NCBI GenBank assembly: GCA_001803635.1
Contig: MHDU01000047.1
Span: forward strand, 1 to 34,715
DNA from: Nitrospirae bacterium GWB2_47_37
GTDB taxonomy: Bacteria > Nitrospirota > Thermodesulfovibrionia > Thermodesulfovibrionales > Dissulfurispiraceae
Length of the DNA stretch: 34,715 nt
Reading direction: 5' to 3'
Below the pieces are notes generated by a model. The model was not told the DNA's origin. It worked only from the letters and a program-made list of their open reading frames with translations, and searched no databases. This document shows positions 1 to 16,628 of this stretch, one piece after another. The stretch's first letter is position 1, and the number at the start of each line of letters is the position of its first letter. A program made the position numbers and the translations under genes.

Positions 1-603
1 AAGAAATCGATGATCCAAATAAAGTTCATGTCGAAGACGATTGACGACTTCAGGAATTTCTTCAGGCCCGATAAGGAAAGACAGGCATTTGATGTAAAAC
101 TTGCCGCAGGGGATGTCCTTTCTATGCTGTCGGCGCAATTAAAGTCAAACAACATCTCTTACCGCCTTACATGTCATGAGCATAACAAGACAGTCGAGGA
201 TTTCAGGGAAATAATCCCATGCGACGCCTTTAATATTGAGGGTTATCCGAATGAAATGAAGCAGGTGTTTATGAATATAGCAAACAACGCGAAAGACGCG
301 ATACTGCAAAGGCGTGAGGAAGGACTCATGCCGGCAGGTGAAAAGGGGTTAATAGCGTTTGATTTTGAGAAAGAGGGCGACAAGAAAGTCATAAGGATAA
401 CGGACAACGGCGGAGGCATACCCCAAGAGATAATTGACAGGGTATTCGACCCTTACTTTACGACCAAGGAACAGGGCAGGGGAACAGGCATAGGCCTTTA
501 TATGTCGAAGGTGATCATAGAAACCAATATGGGCGGCAGGCTCTCCGTGCGGAATATTGACGGCGGGGCGGAGTTCAGGATAGAGATAACAGTTAATGCC
601 TGA
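1..603 (+). CDS. Sensor histidine kinase, C-terminal part (5' truncated by window edge)
   Basis: The reading frame is open from base 1, so the gene begins upstream of the window; about 200 C-terminal residues are present. They hold the end of the dimerisation region and a full HATPase_c domain. The N box contains NIANNAKDAI, the G1 box is DNGGGIP, and the G2 box is GTGIGLYMSK. The phosphoacceptor His lies off the window. The protein is a close paralogue of the kinase at 5830-7248: the segments around TIDDFRNFF, YRLTCHEHNKT and FDPYFTT are shared almost word for word. By analogy it could also carry an HNOBA sensor domain, but that part is not visible. It sits 19 bases ahead of a receiver-kinase hybrid, the same order as the downstream pair. 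Confidence 0.93.
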   Translation, partial: KKSMIQIKFMSKTIDDFRNFFRPDKERQAFDVKLAAGDVLSMLSAQLKSNNISYRLTCHEHNKTVEDFREIIPCDAFNIEGYPNEMKQVFMNIANNAKDAILQRREEGLMPAGEKGLIAFDFEKEGDKKVIRITDNGGGIPQEIIDRVFDPYFTTKEQGRGTGIGLYMSKVIIETNMGGRLSVRNIDGGAEFRIEITVNA

Positions 604-622
604 TAGGGATATAGGAGGGGAG

Positions 623-1768
623 ATGGAAATCAATGAATCGGAAGATATACTGAAAGGGGTTGCCGTTCTTTTTGTCGAGGACGACGCCGACATCAGGGAG
701 CATCTCGCGGCATTTTTAAAAAGAAGAGTTAAAGACCTCTACACTGCGGTTAACGGCAAAGAGGGCTTTGAGCAGTTTGCCGGGCATAAGCCCGATATTG
801 TTGTTACGGATATAAACATGCCTGTGATGAACGGACTTGAAATGGCGGAGAGGATAAAAAGGATTGACGAACAAGTTCCCGTTATAGTTATAACCGCATA
901 TAACGATCAGAATTTTTTCATGGAGTCGATAGAAATAGGCGTAGACAGGTATATCTTAAAACCGGTAATAGCCGAAGACTTTTTAAGGGTCATCACTGAT
1001 GTTGCGGTTTCTCTCCGGCGGAAAAGGGAGGTGGAACTGCTCAGAAAAGCGCTTGATGACTCCATGAGGCTGCAATCCGTAGCGCAGCTTATAAAGGGAC
1101 TTTCCCACAATTTCAATAATATCCTTGTAGGAATAGTCGGCTATGCAGGACTGATAAGGATGAAACTGTCTCAGATCGAAAATAAAGAAATTTCCGAAAT
1201 ATTGAACTACCTTGACACCGTAGAAAAATCCGCCGGCAGGGCGTCGGAGCTTATAAGGCATTTGATGACATTTTCAGACAGGATTGAATGCGAAAAGAAC
1301 GATATTCATATCAATGACGTTGTCAGGCATGCGATTGAAATGATCGGATTATCATTTCCGAAAAACATAAGGATAGAAACCTCTCTTCCTGACGGCCTTC
1401 CATACATCAACGCAGACGGCAACAAACTGGAGCAGGCGATCCTTAATGTATGCCTGAACGCTAAGGAGGCGATGCCGGAAGGGGGCGAATTAAAAATAGA
1501 GACCTTCAGCAACACGGAAGGAATTACAGCAATAAAAATAGCCGATACGGGATGCGGCATGGATGAGGAGACAAAGAGGATGATGTTCGATCCCTTTTTC
1601 ACGACGAAGGGACTTGTAAGCCATCTCGGTCTGGGGCTGTCGATAACCATGAGCATAATCAGGCAGCACAACGGCTTTATACGCGTGGACAGCGCCGAAG
1701 GCAAAGGCACGGTTTTTACAATCTATCTGCCTGTTTCAAGGGCGGCGACCGCCGAGTTTATTGTTTAG
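623..1768 (+). CDS. Receiver-histidine kinase hybrid (REC then kinase)
   Basis: A 381-residue cytoplasmic protein. Residues about 10-130 form a receiver: acidic pocket VEDD (19-22), phosphoacceptor Asp63 in VTDINMP, and Lys113 in LKPV. A kinase transmitter follows, with H-box His162 in SHNFNN, N box LNVCLNAKEAMPEGG, G1 DTGCGMD and G2 GLGLS. There is no membrane segment. An ATG at 596 is in frame, but 623 is chosen because AGGAGGGG lies just upstream; the 596 start would overlap the preceding kinase and has no such site. The receiver probably takes phosphate from the preceding kinase and controls its own transmitter. No DNA-binding output is present. It is paralogous to the protein at 7281-8387. 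Confidence 0.92.
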   Translation: MEINESEDILKGVAVLFVEDDADIREHLAAFLKRRVKDLYTAVNGKEGFEQFAGHKPDIVVTDINMPVMNGLEMAERIKRIDEQVPVIVITAYNDQNFFMESIEIGVDRYILKPVIAEDFLRVITDVAVSLRRKREVELLRKALDDSMRLQSVAQLIKGLSHNFNNILVGIVGYAGLIRMKLSQIENKEISEILNYLDTVEKSAGRASELIRHLMTFSDRIECEKNDIHINDVVRHAIEMIGLSFPKNIRIETSLPDGLPYINADGNKLEQAILNVCLNAKEAMPEGGELKIETFSNTEGITAIKIADTGCGMDEETKRMMFDPFFTTKGLVSHLGLGLSITMSIIRQHNGFIRVDSAEGKGTVFTIYLPVSRAATAEFIV

Positions 1769-2263
1769 TTCCTCTAATTCCTTTCTTAATGCGCCGATCT
1801 GTTCCGTGGAGTCTTTCTGCATTCCTGCTATCATCTCCGTGCTTATTTTTTGGATTTCAGCCTCTCTTTCCCTTATCCTGCACAATATATCCCTGTCCCG
1901 CATCATCCTCTGAAACCTGAGCAGAAATTCGTCTACGGAAAAAGGCTTGCTTATAAATTCGCTCGCCCCGGCATCGACGGCCTTTGCAGCGGAATATGTA
2001 TCGGTAAAGCCCGTCATTATCATAATAGGCATATCCCTATTTTGCGATCGTATCTTTTCGGTTAAGGAGAGACCGTCCATTTCAGGCATGACAATATCGG
2101 TGATCACGGCGTCGAACTGACCGTTGCGATATTTGTCAAAGGCCTCTTTGCCGTTTGAAGCCGTTTCGCAAATGTGCCCTTTTGACGATAACAGAGGGAC
2201 AAGCAGACTTTTTATAATCTCTTCGTCGTCAACGATGAGAACATTATATCTGAAACATTCCAT
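1736..2263 (-). CDS. Single-domain response regulator with C-terminal coiled coil
   Basis: A 175-residue protein with a receiver over residues about 5-122: acidic pair in VDDEE (11-15), phosphoacceptor Asp56 in VITDIVMP, conserved Thr in MTGF, and Lys106 in SKPF. Residues about 130-172 are charged and heptad-like, so probably a coiled coil; no output domain is visible. It likely acts by protein-protein contact, as a phosphate sink or as an adaptor for the neighbouring kinases. The gene converges on the preceding hybrid kinase and their 3' ends overlap by about 33 bp. It is divergent from the periplasmic-protein operon that starts at 2486, so the 2264-2485 gap probably holds promoters for both directions. 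Confidence 0.92.
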   Translation of the reverse strand: MECFRYNVLIVDDEEIIKSLLVPLLSSKGHICETASNGKEAFDKYRNGQFDAVITDIVMPEMDGLSLTEKIRSQNRDMPIMIMTGFTDTYSAAKAVDAGASEFISKPFSVDEFLLRFQRMMRDRDILCRIREREAEIQKISTEMIAGMQKDSTEQIGALRKELEELNNKLGGRRP

Positions 2264-2485: not shown

Positions 2486-3676
2486 ATGAAAAAGACCGTA
2501 TCGATTCTGATAACCGTCATGTTGGCATGTTTCTGTATTTTAAATATTTCTTTCGCTGCGGACAACATAATATATATCGGCCTCGATGCGGAATTCGGAC
2601 ACGCCACAAGCACATCTGACGACGCGATAAAGCGCGGAATCCTTATAGCAATTGACGAGATCAACCGCGCGGGAGGGGTGCTCGGCGGAAAAAAACTGGA
2701 GCTGATAGAAAAAGATAACCGCTCTGTGCCTGCTCGCGGCGTGCAGAACACTAAAGACCTTGCCGACGTCAAAAACCTTGTCGCTGTTTTCTGCGGGAAA
2801 TTCACGCCGGTGGTTTTAGAAACAATTCCCGTTATTCATCAAATTGGGCTTCCGCTTCTGGACCCGTGGGCCGCTCATGACAAGATAATAGACAATGGTT
2901 ACAGTCCCAATTACGCATTCAGGCTTGGGCTGAGAGACAGTTGGGCTATTGCCGCAATGATGCGTCATGCTGAAAAAAAGGGGGCCAAACGGGTCGGCAT
3001 GCTGACCCCTATCACAAGCTGGGGAAGGGGCAATCACGAGGCAGCGCAGAAATATGCGGCAGCGAATCCTCAAATTACAATCACGAATGTGCAGTGGTAT
3101 AGCTGGGGAGAAAAAACTCTAATAGACAAATATAACGCATTAAGGAAATCCGGAGCAGAGGCGGTTATCCTTATTGCCAACGAAGGCGAAGGCTCTCTCC
3201 TCGTGCGGGAGGTTGCGTCCCTGCCCGAAAAAGAGCGTCTGCCTATCATAAGCCACTGGGGCATCAGCGGCGGAGACTTCCCCGCGCTTACAGGCACTGC
3301 CCTTCAGAAGGTTGATTTCTCGGTAGTGCAGACATACAGCTTTTTCGATGCGCCTGAAAGCGAAAAGGTAAAAAAGATACTCTCGATAGCGAAAAGACTC
3401 TTCAACATAAAGGAATTAAAAGACATCAAATCTCCGGTGGGGCTCGCGCATGCCTATGACCTTACGCACATTCTGGCAAGGGCTATCAACATCGCAGGAA
3501 GCGGCGACCGCAAGGCAGTCCGCAACGCAATAGAACAGGTAAAAGATTACGACGGCCTCATAAAGTTTTACAAACAGCCGTTTACTGATGCGAGACACGA
3601 GGCGCTTTCTCCGGATGATGTGTTTATGGCCAAATTCAGGGCCGACGGCGCAATCATAAGGATATATGACAGATAA
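2486..3676 (+). CDS. Periplasmic ligand-binding protein, branched-chain amino acid/LivK type
   Basis: A 396-residue type I periplasmic binding protein (Peripla_BP_6 / LivK-like fold). It has a clear Sec signal peptide: basic MKK, hydrophobic run to about residue 20, and likely cleavage after SFAA near 24-25. The mature part starts IIYIGLDAEFGHAT and continues with KRGILIAIDEINRAGGVLGG, typical of the family. AGGAGGG sits six bases before the ATG. No ABC permease or ATPase is nearby. The next gene overlaps by 11 bp and encodes a membrane sensor, so this protein more likely presents a ligand to that sensor than feeds a transporter. The ligand cannot be told from sequence. Confidence 0.9.
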   Translation: MKKTVSILITVMLACFCILNISFAADNIIYIGLDAEFGHATSTSDDAIKRGILIAIDEINRAGGVLGGKKLELIEKDNRSVPARGVQNTKDLADVKNLVAVFCGKFTPVVLETIPVIHQIGLPLLDPWAAHDKIIDNGYSPNYAFRLGLRDSWAIAAMMRHAEKKGAKRVGMLTPITSWGRGNHEAAQKYAAANPQITITNVQWYSWGEKTLIDKYNALRKSGAEAVILIANEGEGSLLVREVASLPEKERLPIISHWGISGGDFPALTGTALQKVDFSVVQTYSFFDAPESEKVKKILSIAKRLFNIKELKDIKSPVGLAHAYDLTHILARAINIAGSGDRKAVRNAIEQVKDYDGLIKFYKQPFTDARHEALSPDDVFMAKFRADGAIIRIYDR

Positions 3677-5270
3677 ACAAAATATTAAAACATCTTCCGG
3701 TTATTTCGGAAGGCTGTTTGGCGCAAGCATCTCAACCCGCATAGCCTTTGCGTCCGTGTGCATTGTCATGTTAATAGCCCTGCTCATAGGCTCGGTTTCT
3801 CATATCTTCATACGCTCATATATAATGGAACGGTCTGCGGTTGCAATGGAGCATAATGCCGCTTTTGCAAGACAGAGGCTTGAATATTCGCTTAACGCTA
3901 TAATCCATGATGTTTCCAGCATGTCCGGCAATCTTATCCTCTCCAACGCCCTCGTGGATTCTCAGGGAAGGGACATATATATCCTGCCGTTTTTGAAGGG
4001 CTACAAGATGCCCGAAGGGATAACCTTTGCGCTCACGCTCTGCGATTTTCAGGGCATGCCAATCGCGTCCGGCACGAAAGACAATCCTCCTCCATATAAA
4101 AAACCTGAGATGCTGAAACAGACGCTGAGCAAAGGACTCCCTTATACGGAGATAACAGGAGACCCCCCAAACCCTAATCTGCTTATTGCGTATCCTGTTT
4201 TCTACGGAGCAACAAATAAGCCCGAAGGCATTATTGTAATGGAGATATGCCTCAAAGATATCTTTGACAGGATGGCCTCGACAATCGGCGGCGATACGCG
4301 TAGAAGCATCCGCATTACAAGCGGAGATGCGCTTATATGGACAAACGGCGCAGAGAAAGAAAAGAATTCCGTCATGATCGCAAAAATGCCGAATCTTAAA
4401 GAGCCTTTAAAGGGACTGAACTTAAGGATAGAACTGGCAGAACGACATGCTATACCTTTGAGGAATCTATATGTCTCTTTTATTGTAATAGGGATACTAA
4501 CTCTCGCCCTGACGATTATTTTATCAAGGGCAATCGCCGTGCGCCTTACGAAGAGGCTTGTTGACCTGAGCGAGATCGCAGACCGTATCACGGAAAGCGG
4601 TTTGCCGGATCGGACAGTAAAAGTGGAGGGCAGCGATGAGATCGGGAAGCTCGCCTCTGCGCTTAATAGAATGCTTGAAAAACTGAAGGCCTCGCATGAT
4701 GACCTCGAACGTCTCGTCGGAGAGCGGACTTCAGCCCTCAAGGAGAGGGAAAATTTTCTCCGGACCATTATTGAGACCGAGCCGGAGTGTGTAAAACTCC
4801 TCAATCCGGACTGCGCCCTCCTGACCATGAATTCCGCCGGGCTGTCCATGATAGAGGCCGATTCCCTCGAACAGGTGAAGGGCAAATCGATTCTGCCTCT
4901 CGTGGCTCCCGACTATGTCGAGGCATTCAAAAGGCATGTCGAAGATGTCTTCCACGGCCGGCATGTAACTCTGGAGTTCGAAATAATCGGACTGAAGGGC
5001 ACACGGCGCCGGCTCGACATGCATGCGGTGCCTTTGTGCAACAGCAGTAACGAGATCATCGCTCTCCTCGGTATAACCCGCGATATTACACATAGAAAGA
5101 AGACCGAAGAGAAACTTAAAGACTATATACAAGAGATCGAAAGGTTTAACCGGTTGGCGGTCGGCAGGGAGGAAAGGATGATCGAATTAAAAAAAGAGAT
5201 CAACGAACTCCTCCAATCTATGGGGAAAGAGGAAAAATATAAGATTGCAGAGGGGGGAAAGGAGGTCTAA
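3666..5270 (+). CDS. Membrane sensor: extracytoplasmic Cache-like domain, HAMP, PAS, no kinase domain
   Basis: A 534-residue inner-membrane protein. It has a first transmembrane helix at about 26-49, an extracytoplasmic region at about 50-267 resembling single-Cache domains, and a second helix at about 268-288. A HAMP linker (about 289-343, with DEIGKLASALNRM) and a coiled coil follow. A PAS domain at about 362-477 ends in GITRDITHRKK, and the C-terminal tail is helical (NRLAVGREERMIELKKEIN). It stops there: no HisKA, HATPase, cyclase, GGDEF/EAL or chemotaxis output domain is present. Its start overlaps the periplasmic-protein gene by 11 bp, and its stop lies four bases before the H-NOX start. 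It probably passes a periplasmic signal to the separate kinase encoded downstream. Confidence 0.88.
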   Translation: MTDKQNIKTSSGYFGRLFGASISTRIAFASVCIVMLIALLIGSVSHIFIRSYIMERSAVAMEHNAAFARQRLEYSLNAIIHDVSSMSGNLILSNALVDSQGRDIYILPFLKGYKMPEGITFALTLCDFQGMPIASGTKDNPPPYKKPEMLKQTLSKGLPYTEITGDPPNPNLLIAYPVFYGATNKPEGIIVMEICLKDIFDRMASTIGGDTRRSIRITSGDALIWTNGAEKEKNSVMIAKMPNLKEPLKGLNLRIELAERHAIPLRNLYVSFIVIGILTLALTIILSRAIAVRLTKRLVDLSEIADRITESGLPDRTVKVEGSDEIGKLASALNRMLEKLKASHDDLERLVGERTSALKERENFLRTIIETEPECVKLLNPDCALLTMNSAGLSMIEADSLEQVKGKSILPLVAPDYVEAFKRHVEDVFHGRHVTLEFEIIGLKGTRRRLDMHAVPLCNSSNEIIALLGITRDITHRKKTEEKLKDYIQEIERFNRLAVGREERMIELKKEINELLQSMGKEEKYKIAEGGKEV

Positions 5271-5274
5271 CGGG

Positions 5275-5814
5275 ATGAAAGGCGTTATCAATAAGGGTAT
5301 AAAGGAGATGATAGAAGCGCAGCACGGCATCGACAAATGGGAGGAGGTCAGGAAGAACGCGGGCTGCGAAGATATATTTTTTTCCGTAACTGAAGATTAT
5401 CCCGATGATCTTACCATAAGGCTTTTTCAATCGGCAGGCGAGGCGCTCTCGATGTCCGTGGAAGATTTAATGATGGAGTTCGGGAAATTCTGGATAAACG
5501 AGACCGGCAGGAAGACATATCCGCAGATATTTCAGATCGCAGGGAAAGATGCTCGGAATTTTCTCAGAAATATGAACCGTATACACCTTCAAGCGACGCA
5601 GAGCATTCCTGATGCGGCCCCGCCCCGATTCGAATATGACGATCTGCCTGACGGGAGGCTCGCCATGCATTATTTCGGAAGGAAGGAAACGATTTCCATG
5701 CTGAAAGGGCTTATATTAGGCGTAGGCATATATTTCAATCAGGATATGGAGATAGAGGAAAAGCACGGAATGAGAGACGGCGCATCATGCACAATCATGG
5801 TAAGATTCAAATAG
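5275..5814 (+). CDS. Stand-alone H-NOX (HNOB) heme nitric-oxide/oxygen-binding protein
   Basis: A 179-residue soluble protein covering a complete H-NOX domain. The family opening MKGVINKGIKEMI, the YPDDLTIRL segment and MNRIHLQ are all present, with His104 as the expected proximal heme ligand. Next come IPDAAPPRF and a C-terminal GLILGVGIYF helix. The heme-propionate motif Y-x-S-x-R is altered to Y133-F-G135-R-K137, which is unusual. The distal-pocket Tyr used for oxygen binding in the Thermoanaerobacter (now Caldanaerobacter) protein aligns with Met142, so an NO-type rather than O2-type sensor is inferred. The start is ATG 5275 with GGAGGT eight bases upstream. An HNOBA-domain kinase follows after 15 bases and is the obvious partner. 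Confidence 0.9.
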   Translation: MKGVINKGIKEMIEAQHGIDKWEEVRKNAGCEDIFFSVTEDYPDDLTIRLFQSAGEALSMSVEDLMMEFGKFWINETGRKTYPQIFQIAGKDARNFLRNMNRIHLQATQSIPDAAPPRFEYDDLPDGRLAMHYFGRKETISMLKGLILGVGIYFNQDMEIEEKHGMRDGASCTIMVRFK

Positions 5815-5829
5815 GGACAGGATGATTTA

Positions 5830-7248
5830 ATGGATATAACTATCGACATATCGGTTTTGACGGCCTTTTATCCTTATGCCGTCCTTCTGGATGGGGATTC
5901 CAAAATTTTATGGGCAAGTCTTCTGATGAAAAAGACGCTGACTTACGACCCGGAAGGAAAAAAAATTACGGAGATATTTAATCTTCCGGAATCATGCAGC
6001 GACGTTAAAGACCTCATGCCTTTCTGCCGTGAGATGTTTAGGCTGGAGATAAAATCGTCTCATGGGCGGCTCCCGATTCGTGCGGTATGCCTATGTTCTA
6101 AAGAAGGGGATATTACCGGCATAGCCGGAATGCTTGACATCGGTTGTATAGATCAGCTTGCCGGATTCAATATAGATATTAATGATTTTCACTTCAACGA
6201 TCCCATTATAGATATGCTGTTTCTACGCAGCGAATTGAAAACGGTAAAAGCAGACATTCATAATGCTATAACTAAGGTGAGGCAAAAACAGCTTGAATTT
6301 CAAACAACAGAGTCTTACCGGCAGCAGCTCGATGAAAAGCTGAACGAACTCCAAAAACAGCGCTCGGCAATGCTGAACATACTGGAAGACATGGAGGCCG
6401 GGAGGAAGAAGCTTCGTGAACTCAATATAACACTTGAGGGTCGCGTCAAAAGCGAAATCGACAAAAGACAGGAAAAAGAACAGATGCTTGCCCACCAGAG
6501 CCGCCTTGCCGCGATGGGAGAGATGATAGGGGCTATTGCGCATCAATGGAGGCAGCCGCTAAACGCGTTGGGGCTTATAATTCAGGATATAAAGGACGCG
6601 TATGAGTTCGGAGAGCTTGATAAAAGTTATATTTCCAACTCTGTAGAAAAGGCAATGAAACAGATACAGTTTATGTCGAGGACTATAGACGATTTCAGGA
6701 ACTTCTTCAGGCATGATAAAGAGAAAAAGCCCTTTGATGTCAAGCAGGCTGCCGGAGATGCCTTATCGTTGCTTGCGGCGCAACTGAAGTCAAACGATAT
6801 CTCATACCGTCTTACCTGCCATGAGCACAATAAAACCTTTGAAGATTTTACAGAGATCATTCCCTGCAAAGAGTTTTTAATAGAGGGGTATGAAAATGAA
6901 CTGAGACAGGTATTTTTAAATATTATAAACAACGCAAAGGATGCGATATTGGACGGAAGAGAAAGAGGGCTTATGCCGGCCGGAGAGAAAGGGCGTATAG
7001 CCTTAGACTTTGAAAGGGAAGGAGACAAAGTCATTATCCGAATAAGCGACAACGGAGGCGGCATACCGGAAGGCATAAGTGACAGGATATTCGACCCCTA
7101 TTTCACCACCAGAGAACAAGGCAAAGGCACAGGTATAGGGTTATATATGACGAAGATGATAATAGAGCAGAACATGGGCGGCAGGCTTTATGCAGAAAAT
7201 AAAGACGAGGGGGCGGTATTTATAATAGAACTGCATATGAAGGGATAA
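5830..7248 (+). CDS. HNOBA-coiled-coil-histidine kinase, partner of H-NOX (HnoK-like)
   Basis: A 472-residue soluble kinase. Residues about 1-135 match the heme-NO-binding-associated (HNOBA, PAS-like) domain of soluble guanylate cyclases: FYPYAVLLDGDSKIL at the start, then LAGFNIDINDFHFNDP and FLRSEL at the end. A coiled coil (about 132-225) follows. The transmitter has His238 in AIAHQWRQPLNALG, N box LNIINNAKDAI, G1 SDNGGGIP (407-411) and G2 GTGIGLYM. The layout copies soluble guanylate cyclase with the cyclase replaced by a kinase and the H-NOX encoded separately. The start is ATG 5830 with AGGA seven bases before it. It should phosphorylate the receiver of the next gene. It is a close paralogue of the truncated kinase at 1-603. 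Confidence 0.9.
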   Translation: MDITIDISVLTAFYPYAVLLDGDSKILWASLLMKKTLTYDPEGKKITEIFNLPESCSDVKDLMPFCREMFRLEIKSSHGRLPIRAVCLCSKEGDITGIAGMLDIGCIDQLAGFNIDINDFHFNDPIIDMLFLRSELKTVKADIHNAITKVRQKQLEFQTTESYRQQLDEKLNELQKQRSAMLNILEDMEAGRKKLRELNITLEGRVKSEIDKRQEKEQMLAHQSRLAAMGEMIGAIAHQWRQPLNALGLIIQDIKDAYEFGELDKSYISNSVEKAMKQIQFMSRTIDDFRNFFRHDKEKKPFDVKQAAGDALSLLAAQLKSNDISYRLTCHEHNKTFEDFTEIIPCKEFLIEGYENELRQVFLNIINNAKDAILDGRERGLMPAGEKGRIALDFEREGDKVIIRISDNGGGIPEGISDRIFDPYFTTREQGKGTGIGLYMTKMIIEQNMGGRLYAENKDEGAVFIIELHMKG

Positions 7249-7280
7249 AGTTTTTTCAAAGGCGGTTAGGGAAATGAAGA

Positions 7281-8387
7281 ATGGATATTAATAATACATT
7301 GCTTAAAGATGTTTCAATACTCTATGTGGAGGATGACGAAACCATAAGAGAGAATTTATTCAATTTTCTGTCGAGAAGGTTCCGCAGCGTATATACGGCG
7401 CAAAACGGCGAAGAAGGACTCGAATTGTTCAAAGACAAACTTCCGGATATTGTGATAACGGATATTCAGATGCCGGTGATGGACGGCCTTAGGATGGCGG
7501 AAGAGATAAAGAAAATAAGCGGTGATACGCCTGTGATAATTACTACCGCGTTCGGCGACGTGCCGTATTTGATGAAGGCGATCGAACTCGAAATAGACGG
7601 CTATCTTCAGAAGCCTATAAGATATGAGAAGCTGTTCGATACGGTATGCAAATTCGCCGCGCGCAGAAAAATGGAAGAAGAACTGCTTAAGGCAAAGAAA
7701 CTGGAGTCCATAGGCATCCTTGCGGCCGGCATTGCGCATGATTTTAATAACCTCCTGACGCCGATTTTAGGGCACATTTCCCTCGCAAAGACAAGCCTTG
7801 CTCCGGACGACAAAATATACAAAAATCTCGATGCGGCGGAAAAGGCCTCTTTCATGGCAAAGGACCTTGTTCAACGTTTTATGGTGTTCGCGAAAGGCGG
7901 AGAGACCGTTAAAATGGTAATTTCGATTAAAGAGTTGATAAAGGAGGCTTCGATATTTCTCCCGAACTCGAACGCGGAGTGCGAGTTTCATATCGCCGAA
8001 GACCTCCGGAGCGTTGAAGCCGACAGCGGCCAGATATTTCAGACTATCCATAATATTGTCATAAATGCGTGCGAGGCCATGCCGGATGGGGGAATCGTCA
8101 GCATAAGCGCTGAAAATATCGTCATCGGCAAAAAAGACAATCTTTCGCTTGAAGACGGAATGTACGTAAAGATATCGGTAAGGGATAGAGGCATAGGCAT
8201 TCCCGAAAATCTTCTTCCGAAAATCTTCGATCCCTACTTTACTACAAAAGGAATGGACAGCAGAAAAGGCACCGGACTCGGGCTTGCGACCGCTTATTCC
8301 ATAGTCAAGAGGCACGGCGGATATATTTCGGTCGAATCCGAGGCGGGCGTCGGTACTGTTTTCCATATTTATCTGCGTGCGGTTTAG
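7281..8387 (+). CDS. Receiver-histidine kinase hybrid (REC then kinase), end of H-NOX operon
   Basis: A 368-residue cytoplasmic protein. The receiver (about 8-128) has VEDDE (17-21), Asp61 in VITDIQMP and Lys111 in QKPI. The transmitter has His153 in GIAHDFNNLLTP, N box NIVINACEAMPDGG, G1 DRGIGIP (302-308) and G2 GTGLGLA. It has no membrane helix and no DNA-binding domain. The order receiver-then-kinase is the reverse of classic hybrids and suits a relay step: phosphate from the HNOBA kinase would switch this transmitter on or off. The final target is not encoded here unless it is the single receiver at 1736-2263. The start is ATG 7281; an ATG at 7274 is in another frame and stops after five codons. 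Confidence 0.92.
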   Translation: MDINNTLLKDVSILYVEDDETIRENLFNFLSRRFRSVYTAQNGEEGLELFKDKLPDIVITDIQMPVMDGLRMAEEIKKISGDTPVIITTAFGDVPYLMKAIELEIDGYLQKPIRYEKLFDTVCKFAARRKMEEELLKAKKLESIGILAAGIAHDFNNLLTPILGHISLAKTSLAPDDKIYKNLDAAEKASFMAKDLVQRFMVFAKGGETVKMVISIKELIKEASIFLPNSNAECEFHIAEDLRSVEADSGQIFQTIHNIVINACEAMPDGGIVSISAENIVIGKKDNLSLEDGMYVKISVRDRGIGIPENLLPKIFDPYFTTKGMDSRKGTGLGLATAYSIVKRHGGYISVESEAGVGTVFHIYLRAV

Positions 8388-14066: not shown

Positions 14067-14126
14067 ATGAATAATAAAGATATGGAGGCATGGGTAGATA
14101 AAAGGCTTTACCTCGCCACATTATGA
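14067..14126 (+). CDS. Possible 19-residue leader ORF coupled to mlaE
   Basis: ATG 14067 opens a 19-codon frame beginning MNNKDMEAWVDKRLY, whose TGA overlaps the mlaE ATG (ATGA). The mlaE start itself has no good Shine-Dalgarno, so coupling from this short frame could explain how it is translated. The short frame also lacks a clear ribosome-binding site. Supported only by position. Confidence 0.25.
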   Translation: MNNKDMEAWVDKRLYLATL

Positions 14127-14893
14127 AATTTATAGAGTTAATAGGCAGGTATATTATCCGTTTTACGGGCGAACTGGGCAATGTTTTGATATTGCTCCGG
14201 CATACGGTAAAACAGGCGCTCGTTCCTCCCTATGAGATAAGGAGCGTCCTGAAACAGATAATTGAGATAGGCATAAAATCCCTTCCCGTAGTTCTTATCA
14301 CCGCCGTTTTTACAGGCATGGTCATGGCGCTTCAGACTTACACCGGATTTAAGAGATTTAACGCGGAGTCTATGGTGGGGTTCGCCGTGGCCCTATCGAT
14401 AACGAGGGAACTCGGCCCTGTCCTAACAGGAATTATAGTTGCCGGCAGGGCAGGAGCGGCGATGGCCGCGGAACTCGGTACAATGAGGGTTACGGAGCAA
14501 ATAGACGCGCTTGAGACGCTTGCGGCCAATCCTGTTAAATACCTGATCGTTCCGAGGTTCTTAGCCGGCATGGCGGCCCTTCCGGCGCTTGCTGTTGTCA
14601 CGGATATTGTAGGCATCATGGGCGGCTATACCGTTACCGTCGGTTTCTTCGGCGCAAGCTCCGCGACATACTGGAAGAAGACATGGGACTTCATAGAGCT
14701 TGAAGATATATACTTCGGACTTGTCAAGGCGGGTTTTTTCGGAGCGTGCATAGCTTTGATAAGCTGTTATAAGGGGTTTTACTCCGAAGGAGGAGCCGAA
14801 GGGGTAGGCAAGGCGACAACAGGCGCTGTGGTTCTTTCGTCGATGACTATACTCATATCCGACTATTTTCTTTCAGCGTGGATGTTCAGATGA
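14123..14893 (+). CDS. mlaE: MlaE-type ABC permease (phospholipid transport)
   Basis: A 256-residue inner-membrane permease of the MlaE/YrbE family with about five hydrophobic segments. Family signatures are GMVMALQTYTGFKRF, SITRELGPVLTGIIVAGRAGAAMAAELGTM, VTEQIDALE, and the C-terminal SSMTILISDYFL. With MlaF and MlaD it forms the inner-membrane complex moving phospholipids between inner and outer membranes. Its stop overlaps the mlaF ATG (ATGA), and mlaD follows the same way. This indicates a diderm organism. MlaB and MlaC homologues are not adjacent. Confidence 0.94.
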   Translation: MKFIELIGRYIIRFTGELGNVLILLRHTVKQALVPPYEIRSVLKQIIEIGIKSLPVVLITAVFTGMVMALQTYTGFKRFNAESMVGFAVALSITRELGPVLTGIIVAGRAGAAMAAELGTMRVTEQIDALETLAANPVKYLIVPRFLAGMAALPALAVVTDIVGIMGGYTVTVGFFGASSATYWKKTWDFIELEDIYFGLVKAGFFGACIALISCYKGFYSEGGAEGVGKATTGAVVLSSMTILISDYFLSAWMFR

Positions 14894-15651
14894 TAGAAAT
14901 TACGGATCTCTATAAATCCTTCGGTCAGAAATATGTGCTTCGGGGAGTGAACCTCAAGGTGCGTAAGGGCGAAAGCATGGTGGTTATCGGGGGCAGCGGT
15001 TCTGGAAAAAGTGTCCTGATGAAGCATATAATAGGATTGGTTAAGCCCGACAGGGGAAATGTGATGGTTGACGGCAGGGATATATCAAACATAGATGAAA
15101 AGGGTTTATATGAGACGAGGAAAAAGTTCGGCATGCTTTTTCAGGGCGCGGCATTGTTCGATTCCATGAAGGTGTGGGAAAACGTCAGTTTTGTTCTCAT
15201 GAGGGAAAGAGGAATGAGCAGAGAAGATGCGCGGCAGACGGCTATTCAAAAACTCAAGATGGTAGGTCTTGACGGCGTGCAGGACCTTATGCCGTCGGAG
15301 CTTTCGGGCGGCATGAAAAAGAGGGTCGGCCTTGCGAGGGCCATTGCCCATGAACCGGAGATACTTCTTTATGACGAACCTACGACGGGACTCGACCCCA
15401 TAATGGCGGACGCCATAAACGACCTGATAATAGAAATGAACAAAAGGCTTTCGGTTACTTCCGTTACCATAACCCACGACATGCACAGCGCATATAAAAT
15501 AGCGGACAGGATTGCGATGCTCTATTCAGGCAAGATTATAGAGATCGGCGCTCCTGATGACATAAAGAGCACGGAAAACCCCGTAGTAAGACAATTTATA
15601 AGCGGCAGCGCCGTAGGCCCCATAACCGGCGCGCCCATGTTAATGCAATGA
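14890..15651 (+). CDS. mlaF: MlaF-type ABC transporter ATP-binding protein
   Basis: A 253-residue ATPase. Walker A is GGSGSGKS ending at Ser41, Q-loop FQGAALFDSM, signature LSGGMKKR from 138, Walker B EILLYDEP with Glu163, and H-loop ITHDM with His196. The SALFDSM-like and LSGGMKKR forms are typical of MlaF/Ttg2A. A GTG at 14878 is in frame, but ATG 14890 overlaps the mlaE stop as ATGA and gives the usual IEITDLYKSFG start, so it is preferred. It powers the MlaE permease. Confidence 0.95.
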   Translation: MIEITDLYKSFGQKYVLRGVNLKVRKGESMVVIGGSGSGKSVLMKHIIGLVKPDRGNVMVDGRDISNIDEKGLYETRKKFGMLFQGAALFDSMKVWENVSFVLMRERGMSREDARQTAIQKLKMVGLDGVQDLMPSELSGGMKKRVGLARAIAHEPEILLYDEPTTGLDPIMADAINDLIIEMNKRLSVTSVTITHDMHSAYKIADRIAMLYSGKIIEIGAPDDIKSTENPVVRQFISGSAVGPITGAPMLMQ

Positions 15652-16628
15652 AAGGACAGATTAAAAAATTATCAGCCGAACTTAAGGTAGGCATTTTCGC
15701 CTTGATCGTTTTAGTGCTGCTCGCGTTTATGACCTTTAAGATCGGGGACATAGAACTGTTCAAAGGCGGGGGATATACGATTTATGCCTATTTTAACAAC
15801 ATCATAGGGCTCGATCAAAAGACAAAGGTGAGGGTTGCCGGAGTTGATGCCGGAATCATAACCGGCATAACACTCGAAAACGGCAGGGCAAAGGTGGCGA
15901 TAAGGATGCACGAGGGAGTTAAGCTTTACAGTGACGCTGCCGCTTACATCAAAATTACCGGATTTTTGGGAGATAAGTTTCTTGAGATAAAACCCGGCTC
16001 CCAACCGCCGCTTTTGAAGCACAGGGATACGCTTGTCAATGTCATGGAGGTTACGGACATCGACGGCCTGATAAGGAATCTTTCCGCGCTTTCTAAGGAT
16101 ATCAGCGCTCTTTCATCGTCCATCGATGAAATGGTAGGGTCGGAAGAAGCGAAACAGTCATTCAAGGAGTCGATAGCCAATGTGAGGGAGATTACCAGAA
16201 AAGTAGGCTCGGCTATAGATTATAACGATAAGAGCCTCAGGAAGGTTCTTGACGACATAAACGAGCTTATAAAAACGAATAAAGACCTTTTTAACGCTAC
16301 AATGTCTAATTTGAACAATCTGTCGGATAAGGGGCCGTCTCTCGTCGAAAAACTCGATAAGGCCGCAAAAGAACTGAATGCGCTCCTTGAGGAAAGTAAG
16401 CCGGGATTAAAAAACAGCATCGAACGGCTGGATAGGGTTACCGGAAAGATCGAGAGAGGGGAAGGCACGGTCGGCAAGCTTATAGCCGACGATGAACTCT
16501 ATGAATCCGCGGAAAAGACAATGAGCGGGACAAAAGAGCTTATAGATTCGGCAAAAAAAACATGGCCTCTAAGGTCATACATAAAAGAGCCTGAAGAAAA
16601 AAAGCTGAAGATTGACAGCTACGAATAA
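15648..16628 (+). CDS. mlaD: MCE/MlaD-family substrate-binding protein
   Basis: A 326-residue protein anchored by one N-terminal helix (about 13-31) with the rest in the periplasm. The MCE domain (about 38-118) has YFNNIIGLDQKTKVRVAGVD and ITGFLGDKFLEI. A long helical tail (about 140-300) carries repeated Leu/Lys/Asp heptads and RVTGKIERGEGTVGKLI, a common MCE tail feature. MCE proteins form hexameric lipid-binding rings with MlaEF. The start overlaps the mlaF stop (ATGA). It is longer than E. coli MlaD because of the tail, more like MCE proteins of diderm non-enterics. Confidence 0.93.
   Translation: MKGQIKKLSAELKVGIFALIVLVLLAFMTFKIGDIELFKGGGYTIYAYFNNIIGLDQKTKVRVAGVDAGIITGITLENGRAKVAIRMHEGVKLYSDAAAYIKITGFLGDKFLEIKPGSQPPLLKHRDTLVNVMEVTDIDGLIRNLSALSKDISALSSSIDEMVGSEEAKQSFKESIANVREITRKVGSAIDYNDKSLRKVLDDINELIKTNKDLFNATMSNLNNLSDKGPSLVEKLDKAAKELNALLEESKPGLKNSIERLDRVTGKIERGEGTVGKLIADDELYESAEKTMSGTKELIDSAKKTWPLRSYIKEPEEKKLKIDSYE

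Follow-up and report, generated by a model that had tools for sequence, protein, structure and literature searches.

Can a histidine kinase (HK) that is encoded beside an H-NOX gene also receive a signal from outside the cytoplasm? This question is raised by a gene cluster in Nitrospirae bacterium GWB2_47_37 (genome G000), located in a 34,715-nucleotide stretch of DNA (contig MHDU01000047.1, forward strand; termed the window). Five plus strand open reading frames at positions 2486–8387 encode, by Pfam and the open reading frame list, a periplasmic binding protein (PBP), a transmitter-less membrane sensor, a stand-alone H-NOX protein, a HK with an HNOBA N-terminal region (HNOBA-HK) and a receiver-HK. 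The reading proposed here, to which we give a probability of about 0.5, is that the HNOBA-HK takes two inputs, one from H-NOX and the other from the PBP-gated sensor, which ends in a conserved tail. Observed directly are the gene content and gene order, the pairing of PBP and sensor, the co-occurrence of H-NOX and HNOBA-HK, the position of the tail sensor and the exchange of the PBP class. The evidence comes from three genomes that carry the set, from contigs of metagenome-assembled genomes, and from searches of one phylum (Nitrospirota).

The five-gene cluster

The features of the cluster are:

2486..3676, plus strand, periplasmic type-I (LIV-type) ligand-binding protein with a signal peptide (Pfam Peripla_BP_6, 5e-33)
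3666..5270, plus strand, transmitter-less membrane sensor: transmembrane segment, dCache, transmembrane segment, HAMP, PAS, C-terminal tail (Pfam for HAMP and PAS; model and Foldseek for dCache)
5082..5252, plus strand, C-terminal stretch of the sensor with the conserved tail IERFNRLAVGREERMIELKKEINELLQSMGKEEKY (profile A4)
5275..5814, plus strand, stand-alone H-NOX with proximal His104 and, as in Nostoc, distal Trp73/Met142; YFGRK in place of YxSxR (HNOB; alignment to Nostoc H-NOX 4iah/2o09; group alignment)
5830..7248, plus strand, soluble HK: N-terminal HNOBA/H-NOXA PAS and coiled coil, then HisKA/HATPase (Pfam; structure match to 2p08/2p04 and soluble guanylate cyclase (sGC) beta)
7281..8387, plus strand, receiver-HK without a DNA-binding or effector domain (Response_reg, HisKA and HATPase_c)

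The original prediction, made from the sequence of the window, described five co-directional genes with gaps of −11, 4, 15 and 32 nt. This description is correct: all five open reading frames lie where it placed them, and the gaps are as given when the H-NOX start is taken to be the ATG at 5275, which has an AGGAGG sequence 9 nt upstream. The membrane protein was also said to have no output domain, and Pfam indeed finds HAMP and PAS in it and neither HisKA nor HATPase.

It is the spacing that suggests co-transcription of the five genes. No intrinsic-terminator-like site was found inside the gaps of the cluster, and the frequency of such sites is not above that in shuffled sequence. The GC content of the cluster is close to that of neighbouring genes (0.44–0.49). 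A recent insertion of an H-NOX gene of foreign composition was considered and rejected, as its GC content is not outstanding. An Rfam scan of the window gave one tRNA only.

A conserved core and an exchangeable binding protein

H-NOX of any kind is found in 2 of 31 genomes of the family and in 27 of 396 genomes of the phylum. The close H-NOX group to which the window protein belongs is present only in G000, G008 and G354 among 176 genomes of the order, and the HNOBA N-terminus is present only in the same three genomes among 392 of the phylum, with H-NOX directly upstream in 3/3. Neither this H-NOX nor the HNOBA-HK is found without the other. A scan of genome contigs with the H-NOX group yielded the two known loci and no others.

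All three genomes, which represent two families, display the same core: a PAS sensor ending in the tail, followed by H-NOX and then by the HNOBA-HK. Identity among the three core loci is 69%–88% for H-NOX, 48%–61% for the HK and about 29% for the sensor. In G354, which belongs to the same order and another family, a non-homologous PhnD-type PBP (PF12974) lies 5 nt before a sensor of the sCache-HAMP-PAS type. Because this PhnD-type protein takes the place of the PBP, the class of PBP varies and the architecture holds. The exchange is the strongest single evidence of a functional link. The three gene orders do not represent three independent events, because of common ancestry.

The original prediction suggested a search of genomes for the same five-gene order. 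The five-gene set as listed is not conserved; what is conserved is the core, with an exchangeable class of PBP.

The patchy spread of these genes (2/31 family genomes with any H-NOX, and about 390 phylum genomes of which 3 have the window kind) might point to a chance assembly, i.e. a mobile H-NOX-HK pair that landed behind an unrelated sensor. We consider this very improbable, as the same order recurs in another family beside another class of PBP, the spacing is a tight 4–15 nt, and the GC content (0.44–0.49) is near that of the neighbours.

The periplasmic binding protein and the dCache sensor

LIV-binding proteins are the best relatives of the window PBP among solved structures. A role of the PBP as a component of an ABC transporter was rejected: no permease or ATPase gene lies within or beside the five-gene cluster. 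The nearest ABC genes, at 14123–16628, are Mla/Ttg2-like in appearance (judged from sequence only).

The label “Cache-like”, given to the sensor in the original prediction, finds no Pfam match, but is upheld as dCache by the structure model and Foldseek. The model of the extracytoplasmic region matches the dCache domains of KinD, DctB, LuxQ (including LuxP-LuxQ complexes) and the PctA/C amino-acid chemoreceptors. The pLDDT of this block is mostly 73–91 with local dips to 62–64, and the PAS part is poorly modelled. It should be noted that the structure models of both the sensor and the HK were built on thin alignments.

Homologs of sensor residues 1–290 occur at nine loci, spread over 8 further genomes of the phylum. 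At 8 of these nine loci (7 of the 8 genomes) a PBP homolog is situated immediately 5′ of the dCache-sensor homolog, with ends overlapping or touching. The match of these homologs to the window PBP (phmmer) is 4e-147 in locus L298 and 3e-69 to 5e-84 in loci L300–L306. The exception is L299, with only a weaker LIV-type PBP nearby. Unlike the window sensor, the homologous sensors carry a transmitter by Pfam: HisKA_2 in L298, a HK of the window-HK subfamily in L299 and a hybrid HK in L300; those of L301–L306 resemble the transmitter-fused ones, judged by length and matches. Because the homologous PBP and dCache genes adjoin and the transmitter is fused to the sensor in these loci, the window PBP and sensor appear to be cognate partners in signalling, with the output transferred to a separate polypeptide.

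At L300 (2872–7799), the large periplasmic protein directly 5′ of the dCache hybrid kinase has a DctP (TRAP family 7) domain fused to Peripla_BP_6 (Pfam). From their size and their match to the window PBP, L301–L306 have proteins similar to it. These fusion-type proteins of L300–L306 are 714–721 aa in length and bring two domains for solute binding into a single signalling protein. In addition, nine PhnD-type (PF12974) binding-domain matches are found in G000 on at most 8 contigs, including C70, C72 and C51; two of them share one C72 frame. Some of the matched domains may have a signalling rather than a transport role.

The H-NOX protein and its kinase

The window H-NOX matches HNOB (PF07700) over the whole domain (positions 1–162 of 163; 2e-42, 145 bits), and its closest relative is the Nostoc H-NOX (E-value = 5e-29). 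The proximal His, aligned to Nostoc His105, is kept throughout the H-NOX group. Its assignment to the H-NOX family is based on this His and on the match over the whole domain. The distal residues are equivalents of Nostoc Trp74/Met144, which suggests an H-NOX of the non-O2-binding type. The YxSxR heme-propionate motif is altered, reading YFGRK in the window and G008 and YFGRR in G354; Y-x-S-x-R is intact in the other H-NOX proteins of the phylum that were checked.

The H, N, G1, F and G2 boxes of the HK are intact, as judged by eye. The label “HNOBA” is borne out by predicted structure, which shows the H-NOXA fold, but the Pfam score of 16.3 bits is under the cut-off of 23.4. The G354 homolog scores 20.9 bits alone and 24.5 bits with its frame neighbours, and is the only one to exceed the cut-off. 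An AlphaFold2 model of HK residues 1–240 (pLDDT 81.5) shows a PAS domain and a long coiled coil. It matches the H-NOXA domain of the Nostoc punctiforme signal transduction HK (2p08, Z = 12.6 over 105 residues; 2p04, Z = 12.1) and the PAS and coiled coil of sGC beta (Z = 11.8), and the remaining PAS domains have Z values of 9.0 or less. The Foldseek top matches of the model are sGC. The Nostoc punctiforme HK thus has the same H-NOXA PAS fold as the N-terminus of the window HK, but a low sequence identity to it (13%–15%). We know of no membrane sensor partner of this Nostoc kinase.

The conserved tail

Profile A4 of the tail matches at more than 100 places in 57 of 175 genomes of the order. In every tail protein of the loci read, the tail forms the C-terminal end, 0–19 aa before the stop codon, and none of these proteins has a transmitter after it; two contain an additional internal A4 match. 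A HK is encoded within the next two co-directional genes for 13 of the 26 best-scoring tail proteins and for 17 of all 42. Several weaker-scoring ones are isolated or lie 5′ of HD-GYP proteins. A search of solved structures with the tail profile gave no convincing relative.

The motif LN[IM].ED, considered as a docking signature in the coiled coils of HKs behind tail sensors (3/15 versus 0/21), was rejected; it is absent from the L180 kinase and therefore is not a general signature.

Tail sensors are also found with other partners. On contig G173:C60 there are a PhnD-type PBP, a tail sensor, a short HK of the window-HK subfamily with two transmembrane segments, and a receiver, with no H-NOX. 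At L184, L189, L192, L193 and L195, in several genomes of families f6 and f1, the tail sensor is followed by a stand-alone V4R protein (~175 aa) and then by a hybrid HK. This is the order of tail sensor, cytoplasmic sensor and HK seen in the window, with V4R replacing H-NOX. V4R and H-NOX are reported to have a common fold, by way of TRAPPC3 comparisons (PMC10933270). As an hhalign comparison of the H-NOX and V4R groups gave no detectable similarity, the common fold rests here on that literature. The HNOBA region compared by hhalign with the kinase downstream of V4R also gave no signal, and no HNOBA-like N-terminus was found in that kinase. The V4R clusters are apparently the counterpart of the H-NOX arrangement in the order.

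As a tentative generalization, the tail may mark a class of transmitter-less membrane/PAS sensors that, in the Thermodesulfovibrionales, connect in trans to shared kinases alongside a stand-alone H-NOX- or V4R-type sensor in the cytoplasm. The window operon would then exemplify a general modular design with two inputs per kinase, in which one kinase integrates a periplasmic metabolite and intracellular nitric oxide (NO).

Two tail loci have features of their own. At L178 (1–4089) a GNAT protein and then an NMT1-type binding protein follow a tail protein and precede a second tail sensor. The G008 tail sensor (L064:1399–2169) displays an apparent frame shift over its last 15 residues.

Neighbouring kinase and receiver genes

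Two features lie 5′ of the cluster:

1736..2263, minus strand, divergent single receiver (receiver and coiled coil), 222 bp from the PBP start (Response_reg, 8e-30)
1..1768, plus strand, paralogous module: C-terminal part of a second HK and its receiver-HK (catalytic region 74% identical to the window HK)

The divergent receiver is a possible downstream partner. Window positions 1–81 are an exact 81-base overlap with the end of contig G000:C73, inside a kinase gene. The contig end probably reflects a break in the assembly where kinase sequence is repeated, and the overlap is consistent with, though not proof of, a join. Read across this overlap, the module that precedes the cluster consists of a tail sensor, a Tll0287-PAS-HK and a receiver-HK. 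Just upstream of the window contig (L063:7564–12725) two kinases with near-identical Tll0287-like domains and a CxxCH heme-c motif lie beside another tail sensor.

A receiver-HK directly 3′ of the HK is found in the window only, and the G008 contig stops inside the HK. G354 has a receiver-HK-receiver gene upstream of the PBP. An explanation that involves these genes is that the sensor acts on the receiver-HK (7281–8387) and H-NOX on the HNOBA-HK, with phosphotransfer from the two kinases meeting at the receiver in the way that the LuxPQ and H-NOX/HqsK signals meet at LuxU in Vibrio. The presence of the receiver-HK within the same apparent operon, the parallel convergence known in Vibrio (PMC6759604) and the receiver-HK that adjoins a PBP and tail sensor in G173:C60 are in accordance with this. 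However, the G354 gene is upstream of the PBP and not after the HK, and with the G008 contig ending inside the HK, a conserved position of the receiver-HK is not demonstrated. We consider convergence at the receiver-HK unlikely.

Two inputs or two separate systems

Several observations weigh against a kinase with two inputs. The set is carried by three genomes only. The G008 sensor is a short multi-transmembrane PAS protein with no adjacent PBP and no large extracytoplasmic domain; as the G008 core has no adjacent PBP, the periplasmic branch is not obligatory. No tail-kinase fusion able to prove coupling was found. The G and K residues at the YxSxR position could weaken heme retention, which is in doubt because the motif fails.

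The G008 core without PBP would also fit two independent systems that are merely co-transcribed, where a different kinase (e.g. the upstream paralog) is the target of the PBP and tail sensor, and H-NOX alone acts on the HNOBA-HK. The HNOBA-HK is a presumed partner of the sensor, and the genome has more kinases of the same subfamily; one of them lies about 2 kb upstream and has a tail sensor of its own. Yet the order of sensor, H-NOX and HK is kept across two families with H-NOX between sensor and kinase, and tail sensors elsewhere often precede HKs. Two independent systems are possible, though doubtful.

The idea that an extracytoplasmic branch feeds the HNOBA kinase, as the original prediction held, is partly supported: by the evolutionary pairing of PBP and dCache, by the tail sensor 5′ of H-NOX-HK in 3/3 genomes and by the PhnD-type PBP in the corresponding place in G354, but not by the five-gene order. 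The two-input reading is further favoured by the L299 transmitter of the window-HK subfamily, the G173:C60 arrangement, the HKs encoded close to many of the best-scoring tail proteins, the H-NOXA fold of the HK N-terminus and the established control of adjacent HKs by H-NOX.

Proposed signalling and comparison with known systems

On the two-input reading, the cytoplasmic H-NOX, presumably heme-loaded, would bind NO (or carbon monoxide) at ferrous heme. Its docking site on the soluble HK would be the HNOBA/coiled-coil region, and docking would shift the kinase/phosphatase balance in one direction or the other. The LIV-type PBP would present a putative small ligand to its partner's dCache domain, as LuxP does to LuxQ. 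The sensor, having no transmitter, would relay this signal through HAMP, PAS and the C-terminal helical tail to the same HK by docking in trans; we infer a physical coupling of sensor and HNOBA-HK. The HK may then pass phosphate to the receiver domain of the neighbouring receiver-HK and possibly also to the divergent single receiver.

Regulation of an adjacent HK by H-NOX is biochemically established, and in the Shewanella and Vibrio systems NO-H-NOX regulates HK autophosphorylation (PMC6759604, PMC8738867). As in the window, a stand-alone H-NOX gene adjoins the kinase gene in Shewanella HnoK and Vibrio HqsK/HahK. Unlike these systems, a transmitter-less membrane sensor precedes H-NOX here, with a PBP in 2/3 genomes, and the window kinase has an H-NOXA/HNOBA N-terminus.

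LuxP-LuxQ likewise consists of a PBP and a dCache-like periplasmic domain, between two transmembrane segments, of a HAMP sensor; in the window the PBP gene adjoins the sensor gene. LuxQ, however, has its own transmitter, whereas the window sensor ends in PAS and the tail, and the window PBP is LIV-type, unlike LuxP. In Vibrio the NO/H-NOX and autoinducer-2/LuxPQ inputs converge on the histidine phosphotransfer protein LuxU and not on a single kinase.

In a literature search with limited coverage of subscription papers, no account of an H-NOX operon that includes a PBP or a transmitter-less sensor was found. The cluster is a variant of H-NOX/HK signalling that is new in its arrangement.

Descriptions of H-NOX signalling usually involve a gas sensor and a single effector. 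If a PBP-gated transmitter-less sensor shares the H-NOX kinase, integration at a single kinase would be directly testable with purified parts. It would also suggest a role for the many output-less PAS proteins of the order that end in the same tail.

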